From: Coriobacterium glomerans PW2
GTDB lineage: Bacteria > Actinomycetota > Coriobacteriia > Coriobacteriales > Coriobacteriaceae
NCBI RefSeq assembly: GCF_000195315.1
Contig: NC_015389.1
Location: forward strand, 1,736,001 to 1,800,000
DNA: 64,000 nucleotides
Direction of reading: 5' to 3'
This document shows positions 37,487-43,198 of the stretch, piece by piece. The notes under the pieces are model-generated. The model was given only the letters and a program-made list of their open reading frames with translations. It was not told the origin of the DNA and did no database searches. Position numbers and translations under genes: made by a program. How positions within the stretch are numbered: position 1 is the first letter of the stretch; each line of letters opens with the position of its first letter.

Positions 37487-37881
37487 AGTGTCAACTTCTC
37501 TCCAACTATACAGACTGGAGCTGTTTTTCCACATACTCAGGATGCGCAGACTGTATTCATATATTCGATGGAAAATGACTCCGTGTTCACTCTAGCCTGC
37601 TGCAGCCGGAGTGTCAAAGACATCGAGATGTATGGGAAACAAACAGTGAAGGAGTCAGCGCTTCGTCTCATCACTTCGACCCGCTCTTGGCATGAATCCC
37701 TTTTCATAGGTTGCGATCTTGATTCGAAGAAAATTTTTTCTAAGATCTCATAGATTTTTTCTACCAGCGTCCAGATGCAGTAGTATACATATCGGGCAGG
37801 CGACTCCCTCGATTGAGCGCAACTCATACTTCGATCAGCTGAGATATGACTGTTGCGCTAAAAGCAACCGCAGAAGGGATC
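37487..37881. other. divergent intergenic region between mgtC-like and rpiR-like genes
   Basis: 395 AT-rich bases without a convincing gene. It contains GAAAATTTTTTC (37729-37740; 5-base arms around TT) and a related GATTTTTTCTACC nearby, possible RpiR operator sequences. TATACA (37784-37789) may be a -10 box for the regulator. Frames on the minus strand (37537-37827) lack a ribosome binding site and coding character. Confidence 0.45.
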
Positions 37882-38739
37882 ATGATGACGGGACAAACGC
37901 TCAAACTCAAGATCAAAACCATGGAGAAAGCTTTTTCCGCCAAAGAGATTCAGATTGCTTCGTTCATCCTGAGCGACCCCAAGAGAGCATCGCGCATGAC
38001 CATCAACGAGATGTCAGAGCAGCTGAGCATGGCTGACTCGACGATCTTCAAATTCACGCGCAAACTCGGTTACCAAGGCTTTCGCAGTTTCAGAAATGAT
38101 CTGCTTCTCGAAGACTTTGATCGGGAGGTCTCCATCCACGAACACATCTCGGAATGCTCCGGTCCATGCGAGATCGCCGCGAGCGTATTCGATTCATCGA
38201 TAAAGTCTCTCACCGACACGAAAGCCATGTTGGAAGAAGCGGACATCGTTGCCGCAGCAGATCTGATCATTCACTGCGAGCGACTGTCCTTCTATGGGAT
38301 GGGAGGCAGCAGCATCGTCGCGGCAGACGGGTTCCATAAGTTCATGCGAACCCCGATCGACGTGCGCTATGAGGCAGACTTCCACCTGCAGCTCATGGAA
38401 GCTGCGCGTCTCACAGATCGAGACTGCGCGATAGCCATCTCTCACAGCGGCTGCAGCAAGCAGACAATAGACATCGCGACCATGCTTGAGAAGCGGGGCT
38501 GCCCTGTGATCGCGATCACGAGCAACCCCGCCTCCGCTCTTGCACGCGCGAGCACCGTAGCTCTGGTGACGATCTCCGAAGAGACTGGATATCGCTCGGA
38601 GTCGCTCTCCTCGCGCATCTCGCAGCTCGCGCTCATCGATACCCTCTACACCATGGTGATGCTTCACGATGAGGAGCGCTCGAAGCATTCCCTGCAGCTC
38701 GTTCGAGAGGCGATCGGAACGACCCGCGTCGAGCGATGA
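37882..38739 (+). CDS. RpiR/MurR-family transcriptional regulator
   Basis: Regulator of 285 residues: N-terminal RpiR helix-turn-helix (about 1-77, with MTINEMSEQLSMADSTIFKF) and a C-terminal SIS sugar-phosphate binding domain (FYGMGGSSIVAADGF and AISHSGCSKQTIDIA). The start is ATG 37882 or 37885, both behind AGAAGGGATC. It faces the ascorbate-type PTS operon and is convergent with ulaG 45 bases on, so it is the likely controller, responding to a phosphorylated sugar acid. A small hairpin (38748-38763) between the two genes could end both transcripts. Confidence 0.9.
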   Translation: MMTGQTLKLKIKTMEKAFSAKEIQIASFILSDPKRASRMTINEMSEQLSMADSTIFKFTRKLGYQGFRSFRNDLLLEDFDREVSIHEHISECSGPCEIAASVFDSSIKSLTDTKAMLEEADIVAAADLIIHCERLSFYGMGGSSIVAADGFHKFMRTPIDVRYEADFHLQLMEAARLTDRDCAIAISHSGCSKQTIDIATMLEKRGCPVIAITSNPASALARASTVALVTISEETGYRSESLSSRISQLALIDTLYTMVMLHDEERSKHSLQLVREAIGTTRVER

Positions 38740-38784: not shown

Positions 38785-39858
38785 CTACAGAAACGATGGA
38801 TAGGGCACATCCGTGGGATGCATATGATGATCGGAAAATCCTCGATCATGAAAGTAAGCGATCTTCTCCGCATCCCGAGGATAGATGAAGCTGCCGCCAG
38901 GCAGCCAGGCGAACGGATAGAACGTATAGCCCATGCGATCACGACGCATCCGCCACAGATCGATGACCTCCTGCGGATCTGCAAGCATGTTGCTCCATAC
39001 ATCCCAATGAACGGGAACCACGACGCGGCATCCCAGTGACTCGGCAGCGCGCAGGACATCGGACGAAGTCATCTTGTCCGTTACGGCGATGGGGTTCTCG
39101 GCATAGGCGACGATCGCTACATCGATATCGAATCTCTTGCCGTGCTCAGCCATCATGGTCGCAAAATGAGAGTCCCCGCCGTGGTAGACGCTGCCGGCAT
39201 CCGTTTTGACGACGAAGTTGACTGCGCGCTCGTCCATGTCGGGGATCTCCTTGCCCTCCGGCACCGGCTCACCCTTCTGATCGGTGATCAGAACAGTCCG
39301 GTCAAACGACTCGCAGACATCGATCTCAATATCATGGACCTTGACGGTGTCTCCGGGTCTGACCGTGACGCAGCGCTCGGCGGGCACGCCCCACGCGATC
39401 CACTGATCAACCACGAACTTCGGACCGATGAAGGGTATGTCCTGCTCAACCCCCTGCAGGATGGCGGCCGCGACATTCAGATCGATGTGATCGTGATGGA
39501 AGTGCGTGCACAGCAGCGCATCGAGACGATGGATCGCAAAGGGATTGATGACCATGGGCACGGCGCGCAGATTCGGTTGGATCTTGCGCCCTCCCGTCAG
39601 GCGCGACCACTGATGGCGCGGACCCATATCGGGTGCGTCGTGAGTCCGCTTGCCCGGCCCGCACCACAGATCGATCGCGATCTGTGTCTGCTTGTCGCTT
39701 TTGATCATGACCCCCATGTTCGTGAGCCACCACATACCGAAGGTGCCGTGCTCGATCTCCGTGCGGTCGATCTCTTCGTTGAGCCAGGTCCCCCATTCGG
39801 GAAACACCTCGTTGATCCAGCTCTGCTGGGTCACCTCTTGGACACATTTCGCTGACAT
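38785..39858 (-). CDS. ulaG: L-ascorbate-6-phosphate lactonase, metallo-beta-lactamase fold (UlaG)
   Basis: Metal-dependent lactonase of 357 residues, near the 354 of E. coli UlaG, which opens the lactone of L-ascorbate 6-phosphate. The metallo-beta-lactamase motif is THFHHDHID, with further ligands in YHGGDSHF and VPVHWDVWSN. The N-terminal stretch SWINEVFPEWGTWLNEEI and GTFGMWWLTNMG are typical of UlaG. ATG 39858 follows GGAGAGGAGAGGTCGCC. It is the last gene of a five-gene operon with an ascorbate-family PTS, 114 bases after the IIB gene. UlaD, UlaE and UlaF are not present here. Confidence 0.93.
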   Translation of the reverse strand: MSAKCVQEVTQQSWINEVFPEWGTWLNEEIDRTEIEHGTFGMWWLTNMGVMIKSDKQTQIAIDLWCGPGKRTHDAPDMGPRHQWSRLTGGRKIQPNLRAVPMVINPFAIHRLDALLCTHFHHDHIDLNVAAAILQGVEQDIPFIGPKFVVDQWIAWGVPAERCVTVRPGDTVKVHDIEIDVCESFDRTVLITDQKGEPVPEGKEIPDMDERAVNFVVKTDAGSVYHGGDSHFATMMAEHGKRFDIDVAIVAYAENPIAVTDKMTSSDVLRAAESLGCRVVVPVHWDVWSNMLADPQEVIDLWRMRRDRMGYTFYPFAWLPGGSFIYPRDAEKIAYFHDRGFSDHHMHPTDVPYPSFL

Positions 39859-39972
39859 GGCGACCTCTCCTCTCCTTCTGTGCATTCGGGCGAGCCGAAT
39901 GCACGGGTACAAACGGTTTGACGACGCATCGAACTCGAAAACGACTCGTCATCGATCATGAACTCACATCCG

Positions 39973-40257
39973 CTAGGCTCCCAAGGCCGCGATGCGCGGA
40001 TCGAGGCTCTGCTGGATGGAAGCACGGTCGATGAAGTTGTCGAGAACGACCGTCTTGTCTTTGAACTCCTCGGGGAAGTTCTCCGATAGCTCGTTGGTCG
40101 TCACATAGATATCCGCATCGGTGCCCGAGATGCTGCCGAGATCCACAGTGATGACCTCGATCTCCTCGCGGCCCTCATCGGCCAGGATCGCCTCGATGTT
40201 CATCTTGGCGATGATAGATGAACCGACTCCGAAAGCGCAGACTGCGCAGATCTTCAT
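39973..40257 (-). CDS. ulaB: PTS ascorbate-family IIB component (UlaB/SgaB)
   Basis: Small cytoplasmic phosphocarrier of 94 residues in the lactose/ascorbate IIB fold. The phosphocysteine is in the N-terminal loop CAVCAFGVGSS, and DIYVTTNEL lies near the middle as in SgaB. It takes phosphate from IIA and passes it to the sugar bound by IIC. ATG 40257 follows AAGGAGAGCATT; the longer frame to 40356 lies inside the IIC gene. It starts 20 bases after the IIC stop. Confidence 0.92.
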   Translation of the reverse strand: MKICAVCAFGVGSSIIAKMNIEAILADEGREEIEVITVDLGSISGTDADIYVTTNELSENFPEEFKDKTVVLDNFIDRASIQQSLDPRIAALGA

Positions 40258-40277
40258 AATGCTCTCCTTGAATTGAA

Positions 40278-41594
40278 TCAGATGAACAGCGCTGAGATGA
40301 ACTTGATCACATACATGACCGGCATCCAGACAATAGCGTAGTCGATGTTGGACCACGTCACACCCTGCCCGAAGACCGCGCCGGTGAGCGGATAGAAAAG
40401 TATGACAGCGGCCGAGGTGATCAAGCCTCCCGCGAAGCCCGCAGCGAGCGCGCCCTTCCAGCCACCTGCTTTGTTGCCGAACACGCCCATGACGTTGCCA
40501 TCGAAATACATGATGATCGGTGAGGGGAACACGATGATCGGCGAATGCAGCGCGATCGTCAGCAGACAGACCAGAATGGCCCCGACCGATGAGCCGAGAA
40601 AACCGAACATGCCCCCCATCGGCGAATAGGGGAAGAACGTCGGAGCATCCAGCGCCGGGATGGAGCCGGGCAGAAACCTGTCAGAGATGCCTTTGAACGC
40701 CGGAACTATGGATCCGACGAACATGCGCACGCCCTGCAGCAAAATGACGATGCCCGCTGTGAACGTCCAGGCTTGGATCACCAGCCATATGAACCAGTTG
40801 GTCGCATCCGGTCCCTTGCCGGCGAGCGCTTGGATGCCGTCCTGACCGACGGCTACGCCCATGCCGATGAAAATGATCGGCATCAGGAAGAACAACACGA
40901 CGGTGTTGTCGCGAAACATGATCGCCCATTTGGGTAGCTTGAGTTTGTCCGCATCCTGAGCGGGCTCCGTCGAGCCCACGAGTCTTCCGACACCGGTCGC
41001 GACCAGCGAGCCCACCTGGTCGTTGAACCCGAGGGTGATGACGTCGCCTGTCCACGCGCGCGCCAGTTTGCGAGTGATGGCCGGGGAAAGCGTGAAGTAC
41101 AGCGCGTTCAAAACGCTGCCGAGGCCGATGACGAGCGCGGCGTTGTCTACACCGAGCACCGCTGGCAGCGTGACGGCCATGAAGCATGCGTGGAACAAGG
41201 CGAGATGCGCAGTCAGGTAGACATTCTTGAAATCCTTGGCGGGAATGAGCCGTACGAGCAGCAGATGGAGCAGGAAGGCGAACAGAAATATGAGCACCGC
41301 ATTGCGACCCACGCTCTCCATCGACAGCACCAGAGCACCGGCTGCTTCATTCAGGGGCAGCACGCCCGCCACTCCCAGCGATCCGTTGAGCGCGGTCACG
41401 ACCTTGGAAAGAGAGCTGTTTACGATGCCGGCCCCGGAGGACACGACAAGAAACCCGATGACCGTCTTCACGACGCCATCGATCGTCTGGGGCAACTTCT
41501 TTTTCTGCAGCAGAAGCCCCACGAGTGCGATCAGTCCCAAAAAGATAACCTGATTGGTCAGAAGCTGATATACGATGAAATTCAGAGCGTCCAT
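40278..41594 (-). CDS. ulaA: PTS ascorbate-family IIC permease (UlaA/SgaT)
   Basis: Integral membrane sugar permease of 438 residues in the SgaT/UlaA family, with eleven or so helices. Characteristic segments are LLQKKKLPQTIDGVVKT near the N-terminus, GDVITLGFNDQVGSL in the middle, and VFPSPIIMYFDGNVMG near the C-terminus. ATG 41594 follows GGGGGAGTAGCAC, 3 bases after the IIA stop. Together with IIA and IIB it imports and phosphorylates ascorbate or a related sugar acid. It is slightly shorter than E. coli UlaA (465). Confidence 0.93.
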   Translation of the reverse strand: MDALNFIVYQLLTNQVIFLGLIALVGLLLQKKKLPQTIDGVVKTVIGFLVVSSGAGIVNSSLSKVVTALNGSLGVAGVLPLNEAAGALVLSMESVGRNAVLIFLFAFLLHLLLVRLIPAKDFKNVYLTAHLALFHACFMAVTLPAVLGVDNAALVIGLGSVLNALYFTLSPAITRKLARAWTGDVITLGFNDQVGSLVATGVGRLVGSTEPAQDADKLKLPKWAIMFRDNTVVLFFLMPIIFIGMGVAVGQDGIQALAGKGPDATNWFIWLVIQAWTFTAGIVILLQGVRMFVGSIVPAFKGISDRFLPGSIPALDAPTFFPYSPMGGMFGFLGSSVGAILVCLLTIALHSPIIVFPSPIIMYFDGNVMGVFGNKAGGWKGALAAGFAGGLITSAAVILFYPLTGAVFGQGVTWSNIDYAIVWMPVMYVIKFISALFI

Positions 41595-41597
41595 GTG

Positions 41598-42056
41598 CTA
41601 CTCCCCCGTGTTGATCGCGCAGACGATATCCAGCGCGTCCTTCGTCGTGCAGGCCGCCCGCAGGCTGTTCAAACTGTCGGGCGCGTTGAAGAAGATGACA
41701 AGTCTCCGTAGAAGCTCGATGTGGGCGTCATCATCGACGGCAGCGAAGATCACCACGATGTCGACCGGATCATTGTGCTCGCTGCCAAACGCGACAGGTT
41801 CGTCCAGCGTCGCGATAGCCACGCAGGGGCGATGCACCGCTGCGCTCGGACGTGCATGACCCAAGGCCAGCCCGGGTGCGAGCACGATATAGGGTCCGAG
41901 CTTTTTGATCGCTTCGACCATGTCATCGATGTATGCGGTGTCGATACCGCCGTCTTGGATGAGCGGATCCGCCGCCTTGGCCAGCGCATCCTGCCAGCTG
42001 GATGCATGAATCTTGAGTTGGAGATATCTGGCCTCGAACAAATTGCGCGTCATCAT
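41598..42056 (-). CDS. ulaC: PTS IIA component, mannitol/fructose-ascorbate type (UlaC)
   Basis: Cytoplasmic phosphocarrier of 152 residues. The active-site His is in LALGHARPSAAV, followed by EPVAFGSEHNDPVDIVVIFAA, the standard IIA(Mtl/Fru/Asc) arrangement. ATG 42056 follows CCGGAGGCCGA; the frame beyond it overlaps the gnd-like gene and is not family sequence. It precedes IIC by 3 bases and follows the dehydrogenase gene by 23 bases. Confidence 0.92.
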   Translation of the reverse strand: MMTRNLFEARYLQLKIHASSWQDALAKAADPLIQDGGIDTAYIDDMVEAIKKLGPYIVLAPGLALGHARPSAAVHRPCVAIATLDEPVAFGSEHNDPVDIVVIFAAVDDDAHIELLRRLVIFFNAPDSLNSLRAACTTKDALDIVCAINTGE

Positions 42057-42079
42057 TCGGCCTCCGGTTTGTCTGTCGT

Positions 42080-42979
42080 TCACTTGGTTACGACCGCATG
42101 CCCGCCAAAGCCCTTTCGCAGCGCTGCGACAACTTTGTGCGAGAAATTCTCCTCGCCCATCTGCGATGAATTCCGCTCGAACAGCGACTGAGCGATAACC
42201 GGGGCCGGGACGTTCTGCTCGAGTGCGGCCTGCATCGTCCATTTCGCCTCATCAGATGTACCGATGATGCCTTTGATGCCAGCCAGATCGGGCTCGGCGA
42301 TAAGCTGCTGCTCGATGAGTTCCATGAGCCAGGAGCGAACAACCGACCCGTGGTTCCAGTTCTTGCACACCGCGGCGAGATCGTAGTCGAACGGGGCCGT
42401 GCGCATGATGGCGAGACCCTCCCCGATCGTTTGCATCATGCCGTACTCGACGCCATTGTGGACCATCTTCATGAAGTGCCCGGATCCGGCGGGCCCCACG
42501 TAAGCGCAGCCATCCTCGCATGTGACATCGAGCAGCGCGTCCTCGATCAGCTCGTAGGCGTCTCGATCGCCACCGATCATGAGGCACGCACCCTGTCGGG
42601 CCCCAGACGTTCCGCCTGAGGTGCCGATATCAAGAAAGCGCACGTTATGAGCGGCGCAGGCTGCAGCATGATCGATGGTGTCTCTGTAGTTGGTGTTGCC
42701 CGCGTCGATGAGAATGTCTTCGGGTTCGAGCACCTCCAGGCACTTCGTGATCGTCGCATCGGTCGCATCCCCAGGGGGCACCATCAGCCACATCACGCGC
42801 GGCGCGTCGAGTGCGGCGGCGAGCTCGGTCAGACTCCTCACGGTGTCCACGCCCTTGTCCGCGAGTCTCGCACGTGCCTGTTCCGCGAGGTCGAAGCCGA
42901 TCACTTCGTGGTTATGGTCACAAAGGTTGAGGGCGAGGTTGTAGCCCATCTTCCCCAAACCGACAAGTCCGATCTGCAT
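42080..42979 (-). CDS. gnd: short-form 6-phosphogluconate dehydrogenase family protein
   Basis: Decarboxylating beta-hydroxyacid dehydrogenase of 299 residues, the short GndA/YqeC type rather than the 470-residue form. The nucleotide motif is GLVGLGKMGYNLA, the substrate motif GTSGGTSGA, and the catalytic Lys is in MKMVHNGVEYGMMQ. ATG 42979 follows AGGAGAAAGGACGC. It is first gene of the ascorbate-type PTS operon. It may act as an NAD-dependent 6-phosphogluconate dehydrogenase, or it may take the place of the missing UlaD by oxidatively handling the opened sugar acid phosphate; the second idea is inference only. Confidence 0.88.
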   Translation of the reverse strand: MQIGLVGLGKMGYNLALNLCDHNHEVIGFDLAEQARARLADKGVDTVRSLTELAAALDAPRVMWLMVPPGDATDATITKCLEVLEPEDILIDAGNTNYRDTIDHAAACAAHNVRFLDIGTSGGTSGARQGACLMIGGDRDAYELIEDALLDVTCEDGCAYVGPAGSGHFMKMVHNGVEYGMMQTIGEGLAIMRTAPFDYDLAAVCKNWNHGSVVRSWLMELIEQQLIAEPDLAGIKGIIGTSDEAKWTMQAALEQNVPAPVIAQSLFERNSSQMGEENFSHKVVAALRKGFGGHAVVTK

Positions 42980-43073
42980 TGTTTGCGTCCTTTCTCCTGC
43001 GGCCGTGATCGAGCGCAGCGACGCGCGCTGCAGCTCTCTCGGTTGCGACGGCCGACTCCCGATGGATTCAGGT

Positions 43074-43122
43074 ACTATATCAAAAATTTCTTTTTATGTA
43101 ATTAATAGTGAAAAATTATTTC
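43074..43122 (-). promoter_or_regulatory. promoter and possible RpiR site upstream of the ascorbate-type operon
   Basis: On the minus strand, -35 ATTACA (43102-43097) and -10 TATAGT (43079-43074) are 17 bases apart, with a leader of about 90 bases before the gnd-like gene. GAAAAATTATTTC (43110-43122, 4-base arms) lies just upstream of the -35 box and resembles GAAAATTTTTTC near the rpiR-like gene. Confidence 0.5.
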
Positions 43123-43198
43123 TTTTTTGTCTTCTTTGCACCGTCTGCAGCTGCAAAACCGCCGTTCATCGACAATGATCACAGTTCATCCGCGAACC

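Follow-up and report, generated by a model that had tools for sequence, protein, structure and literature searches.

Coriobacterium glomerans PW2, which lives in symbiosis with the red soldier bug, carries a set of genes in which an ascorbate-type phosphotransferase system (PTS) and a UlaG-type lactonase are found together with a 6-phosphogluconate dehydrogenase (6PGDH). The genes lie on the reverse strand at positions 38785 to 42979 of the window analysed here, a stretch of 64,000 bases corresponding to positions 1,736,001 to 1,800,000 of contig NC_015389.1. The first is gnd (42080..42979), encoding a short-chain 6PGDH of 299 amino acids that scores above the cut-offs of both PRK09599 (384.3 bits, cut-off 271) and TIGR00872 (353.8 bits, cut-off 297). 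It is followed by genes for the EIIA of an ascorbate-type PTS (41598..42056; PF00359), an EIIC of the ascorbate/galactitol superfamily (40278..41594; PF03611, 278 bits) and an EIIB (approximately 39973..40257; PF02302), and finally by ulaG (38785..39858), encoding a metal-dependent lactonase. A longer version of the EIIB open reading frame runs into EIIC, the shorter start at the ATG of MKICAVC was taken. The intergenic gaps are 23, 3, ~20 and ~114 bases, which suggests that the five genes form a single operon. Family scans detect no UlaD, UlaE or UlaF inside it, and bear out the first-pass annotation of an operon with an ascorbate-type PTS, UlaG and a short Gnd that lacks these three enzymes. 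An equivalent gene set is present in other Coriobacteriales and in Bifidobacterium, therefore the arrangement is not due to chance.

Convergent with ulaG, tail to tail, is a gene on the forward strand (37846..38739) for an RpiR/MurR-type regulator with a SIS sugar-phosphate domain (PF01418 and PF01380), and at most of the related loci the homologous operon likewise has an RpiR gene alongside it. The likely promoter and regulatory region of the operon (42980..43180, reverse strand) contains A/T-rich GAAATAATTTTTC-like repeats, recognised by inspection against G791 and G842. A search of the window by eye for an RpiR operator gave just A/T-rich half-palindromes, which are common to G791 and G842. 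Five loci (L052, L055, L057, L058 and L125) have cre-like TGAAAGCGGTTTCG sites 5' of EIIA, and right after the -10 element of the same five is a TGTAAAA...AATCAT / ATGA...TTTTACA dyad, found in Bifidobacterium too, that is a candidate RpiR operator.

The Gnd of the operon retains the motifs GTSGG and KMVHNGVEYG on alignment, including the S-G-G of the former, the equivalents of K183, H186, N187, E190 and Y191, and the C-terminal FGGH (for the roles of catalytic and substrate residues in 6PGDH see PMC8900737). Both Gnd and UlaG have strong sequence matches to solved structures of 6PGDH and UlaG. The genome that was searched consists of 2,115,681 bases in one contig and is 99% complete. Across it PF00393 has one match, the operon Gnd, which is thus the sole 6PGDH, and a search with PF00479 gave no match for zwf. 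With a sole 6PGDH and no zwf, there is therefore no oxidative pentose phosphate pathway feeding 6-phosphogluconate to Gnd, which has no other obvious role in the genome than in the operon. The first-pass annotation had held that the decarboxylase and epimerases of the known ascorbate pathway are missing, and had advised looking for them elsewhere in the genome. For the decarboxylase this stands, as PF00215 has one match genome-wide, probably pyrF (read as such because it is the sole member of the family, that protein itself not having been scanned). That UlaE and UlaF are wholly missing was rejected; a UlaE homologue adjoins a second ulaG at 566-568 kb, and at 424 kb an arabinose-type operon encodes AraD, an L-ribulose-5-phosphate 4-epimerase above its model cut-off. 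UlaD is thus absent genome-wide, UlaE and UlaF from the operon only.

It is apparent that 6PGDH is rare in Coriobacteriales, being found in 14 of approximately 270 genomes sampled, a total estimated from the numbering of the genome set. Seven genomes have an EIIC that shares 49% or more identity with that of the operon, and in each of them the single 6PGDH is encoded inside that PTS operon, whilst none of 18 control loci with an EIIC ~33-37% identical, one of them a true ulaG/ulaD/ulaE locus, has Gnd nearby. In a tree of 25 Gnd proteins the operon copies fall in at least four separate places, these being the Coriobacteriales short form, the Bifidobacterium short form (sister to the genus's own paralogue), the Coriobacteriales long form and the Bombilactobacillus long form. 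The tree has some long branches, and among the long forms its finer structure is uncertain; the short and long forms are clearly of different sources. From its phylogeny, Gnd has joined this type of operon independently at least four times. That Gnd is a passenger gene was rejected on its repeated independent recruitment, the 18 Gnd-free control loci and its single-copy status.

The transporter differs from that for L-ascorbate. The EIIC of the operon scores 336.2 bits against the ascorbate IIC equivalog PRK09410, under the cut-off of 380, and EIIA 106 bits against the UlaC equivalog, under the cut-off of 187. The residues of Escherichia coli UlaA that contact L-ascorbate are T86, Y87, H135, I136, Q139, H194, Q195, D314, I358, F362 and M410 (PMC6048161). 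The operon EIIC retains H135, D314, I358 and F362, and also R288, and has L at I136, but at T86, Y87, Q139, H194, Q195 and M410 it has N, E, F, F, N and N, a pattern of contact residues that is nearly invariant across its clade. UlaG exceeds the cut-off of the L-ascorbate-6-phosphate lactonase equivalog PRK11709 (525.8 bits, cut-off 306), is 52% identical to E. coli UlaG, and retains the metal-binding HxHxDH and the WW, QPNLR, GDSH and DKM blocks in alignment with 2wyl and 3bv6. Beside the metal site are the clade-wide changes NMG for CTG, HHDH for HNDH and HWD for HHD, and with these UlaG may or may not be specific for L-ascorbate 6-phosphate. As most of the EIIC contacts are replaced and UlaG is changed beside its metal site, L-ascorbate is probably not imported, and the EIIC probably takes up some other lactone or sugar acid.

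A second ascorbate-type locus is present at 561-568 kb of the genome (L039:5272-12128), encoding a DeoR regulator, EIIA, EIIC, EIIB, a protein of ~350 amino acids with a weak FG-GAP match, UlaG and UlaE. Like the operon it has an ascorbate-type PTS and UlaG; unlike the operon it has a DeoR regulator, UlaE and the L-ascorbate contacts in EIIC, and no Gnd. Its EIIC scores 384.6 bits against PRK09410 (cut-off 380) and has P, Y, Q, H, Q and M at the six positions replaced in the operon, with nearly all UlaA residues retained both here and in the EIIC of a true ulaG/ulaD/ulaE locus. As UlaD is nowhere in the genome, the decarboxylation step at the second locus is unexplained.

Relatives were found by scanning named genomes with UlaG, followed by EIIC searches by group. 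RpiR with the EIIA-EIIC-EIIB-UlaG set is found in Furfurilactobacillus, Levilactobacillus, Lentilactobacillus, Oenococcus, Bombilactobacillus, L. timonensis and Bifidobacterium. Within Lactobacillaceae EIIC matches were 61-73% identical, with nothing further above 36%; EIIC of the clade is carried by 4 of 189 Bifidobacteriaceae; and three further genomes of Coriobacteriia have it at 78-80%, with a sister group at 46-51%. The EIIC clade of Coriobacteriales, Bifidobacterium and lactobacilli is sharply bounded. The operon includes the short Gnd in this genome, two other Coriobacteriales genomes and Bifidobacterium, and a long Gnd in one further Coriobacteriales genome. In Furfurilactobacillus and Lentilactobacillus it has a protein of the 3-hexulose-6-phosphate synthase (HPS) type without Gnd, in Bombilactobacillus an HPS-type protein with a long Gnd, and in Levilactobacillus neither. 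UlaE and UlaF are in none of the related operons examined.

The lactobacillus HPS-type protein, of 206 amino acids and encoded after ulaG, scores 136 bits as HPS (cut-off 200), and 64 and 40 bits against models of 3-keto-L-gulonate-6-phosphate decarboxylase. At UlaD positions E112, R139, T169 and R192, which from work on UlaD mutants we take to separate UlaD from HPS activity, it has D, N, A and G. A further arrangement occurs on a conjugative Salmonella enterica plasmid (NZ_CP149363.1, L186), which has EIIA-EIIB-EIIC, an HPS-type protein of the HUMPS family, UlaG and a PRD regulator, with no UlaE, UlaF or Gnd in the operon. Its HPS-type protein is ~28% identical to the lactobacillus one and has D, A and G at 112, 169 and 192. 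No near-identical copy of this operon was found in the E. coli genome collection at high identity.

The enediol of D-ribulose 5-phosphate is the intermediate on which HPS enzymes rely. It is known that 6PGDH decarboxylates enzyme-bound 3-keto-6-phosphogluconate to the same enediol, and a partial reaction on 3-keto-2-deoxy-6-phosphogluconate has been studied (PMC8900737). Because Gnd and HPS are unrelated and have this enediol in common, they point to 3-keto-6-phospho-D-gluconate as the probable product of UlaG. From stereochemistry the ascorbate isomer yielding this product is D-isoascorbate (erythorbate); the C5 epimer, which L-ascorbate yields, would require UlaD, UlaE and UlaF. It is therefore proposed, with moderate confidence, that the operon may serve catabolism of a six-carbon lactone resembling ascorbate but other than L-ascorbate, D-isoascorbate being the likeliest. 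The PTS would take up the lactone with phosphorylation of C6, and UlaG would open the ring to give 3-keto-6-phospho-D-gluconate, an intermediate normally made in the active site of 6PGDH. Decarboxylation by Gnd, either directly or through a cycle of reduction and reoxidation with NAD(H), would then give D-ribulose 5-phosphate. The D-ribulose 5-phosphate would pass straight into the pentose phosphate pathway, so that UlaD, UlaE and UlaF would not be needed, and RpiR would regulate the operon.

Within this scheme we infer from sequence what the substrate is, what each enzyme does and that RpiR regulates the operon, whilst an exit through D-ribulose 5-phosphate, with Gnd as the predicted decarboxylating enzyme of a recurrent pathway variant not for L-ascorbate, is well supported. 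The first-pass annotation had suggested an alternative decarboxylating route through Gnd or a different lactone as substrate. The former gains from the four or more recruitments, the sole 6PGDH and the missing zwf, with UlaE and UlaF probably unneeded rather than missing; the latter gains from the lost EIIC contacts, which make the operon probably not an L-ascorbate importer. The earlier interpretation is thus partly upheld, the product being most likely D-ribulose 5-phosphate. It is more tentatively suggested that an erythorbate PTS pathway, leading through Gnd or an HPS-type decarboxylase to D-ribulose 5-phosphate, could have been assembled several times with unrelated decarboxylases.

The main rival to D-isoascorbate as the substrate is gluconolactone. 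Here glucono-lactone, or gluconate with lactone, would be imported, the UlaG homologue would convert 6-phosphogluconolactone to 6-phosphogluconate, and an ordinary Gnd would produce D-ribulose 5-phosphate and NADH, so that normal 6PGDH activity suffices. It is in keeping with this that zwf and gnd flank the Levilactobacillus operon, that in the sister EIIC group a phosphotriesterase-type lactonase and a 2-hydroxyacid dehydrogenase accompany a long Gnd, and that in a Collinsella-like genome (L184:5684-9951) a short Gnd lies next to RpiR and to a mannose-family PTS that may take up gluconate. However, the Furfurilactobacillus, Lentilactobacillus and Salmonella plasmid operons encode an HPS-type decarboxylase but lack Gnd, and such an enzyme would be useless on 6-phosphogluconate because it requires a 3-keto acid; the known substrate of UlaG, moreover, is an enediol lactone, and gluconolactone is considered rather unlikely. 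A hexonate lactone or cyclic sugar acid of another kind, such as the 1,4-lactone of a different aldonate, might also be converted through UlaG to 6-phosphogluconate or a 3-keto acid, the PTS and UlaG having drifted in specificity. The many active-site changes in EIIC and UlaG relative to the L-ascorbate proteins would fit, as would the HAD phosphatase after UlaG in two operons (G125 and G088), but this is less economical, leaves unexplained the convergence on two enzyme types with a common D-ribulose-5-phosphate enediol, and is thought improbable.

Most improbable is that the operon is for L-ascorbate itself, with Gnd replacing UlaD to convert 3-keto-L-gulonate 6-phosphate to L-xylulose 5-phosphate for use by UlaE (567 kb) and AraD (424 kb). 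Whilst the genome does lack UlaD and have UlaE and an L-ribulose-5-phosphate 4-epimerase, and UlaG does exceed the lactonase cut-off, most L-ascorbate contacts are gone from the operon EIIC and retained at the second locus, the HPS-type replacements in related operons are without the UlaD-type residues for L-xylulose 5-phosphate, and those operons are without UlaE and UlaF.

A number of points also weigh against D-isoascorbate and the scheme proposed for it. Bombilactobacillus carries an HPS-type enzyme and Gnd together, which would be redundant, and both are lacking from the operons of Levilactobacillus, Oenococcus and L. timonensis, so that a housekeeping Gnd is assumed to be sufficient. With so many EIIC contacts changed, more than a single stereocentre might separate the substrate from ascorbate. 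The positions separating HPS from UlaD specificity come from the literature, the mutant sequence of 1xby corroborating them partly, and a literature search found no report of erythorbate or isoascorbate catabolism by this route.

Most of the EIIC sister group has a phosphotriesterase-type lactonase where UlaG would be, together with a long Gnd. In Coriobacteriales (L148, L149 and L150) these stand with an ascorbate-type PTS and a 2-hydroxyacid dehydrogenase, a KDPG-aldolase gene coming next in L148, and this operon is probably for another sugar-acid lactone pathway. Two lactobacillus-family operons (L122 and L124) have a HAD-type phosphatase directly 3' of a more divergent UlaG, 53-54% identical to that of the window, and their product possibly has a different fate. 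At L127 (G093) an EIIC stands alone, no UlaG, EIIA or EIIB being recognised nearby, with the equivalents of H135, R288 and D314 altered, and is probably a decaying remnant. The short Gnd of a second Collinsella-like genome (L185) has no recognisable PTS or RpiR next to it.

Amongst known systems, the E. coli ulaG/ulaABCDEF regulon has in common with the operon the ascorbate-family EIIA, EIIB and EIIC and UlaG, from which C6 phosphorylation and ring opening would be expected. It differs in that the operon has Gnd rather than UlaD, UlaE and UlaF, RpiR rather than the DeoR-type UlaR, an EIIC without most L-ascorbate contacts and a UlaG just 52% identical. Gluconate-type operons combine 6PGDH (Gnd) with an uptake system. 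They and the Collinsella-like L184 locus resemble the operon in having 6PGDH with a dedicated transporter, D-ribulose 5-phosphate as product and RpiR; the operon differs in its ascorbate-type rather than mannose-type PTS and added lactonase. The ula2 operon of Streptococcus pneumoniae, a second ascorbate-type PTS, likewise lacks UlaD, UlaE and UlaF, but has TktN/TktC, no UlaG and no Gnd (PMC4324149).

If the proposed pathway is correct, the UlaG of the operon, which family models label as an L-ascorbate enzyme, would belong to a separate pathway with a different substrate, and 6PGDH would act as decarboxylase of a preformed 3-keto acid. The contact residues of EIIC would also offer a simple diagnostic for two classes of transporter. 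Erythorbate is a common food additive, and its possible use by lactobacilli of fermented food, bifidobacteria and gut Coriobacteriales would be explained. Some Penicillium are also known to make it (PMC4332668).

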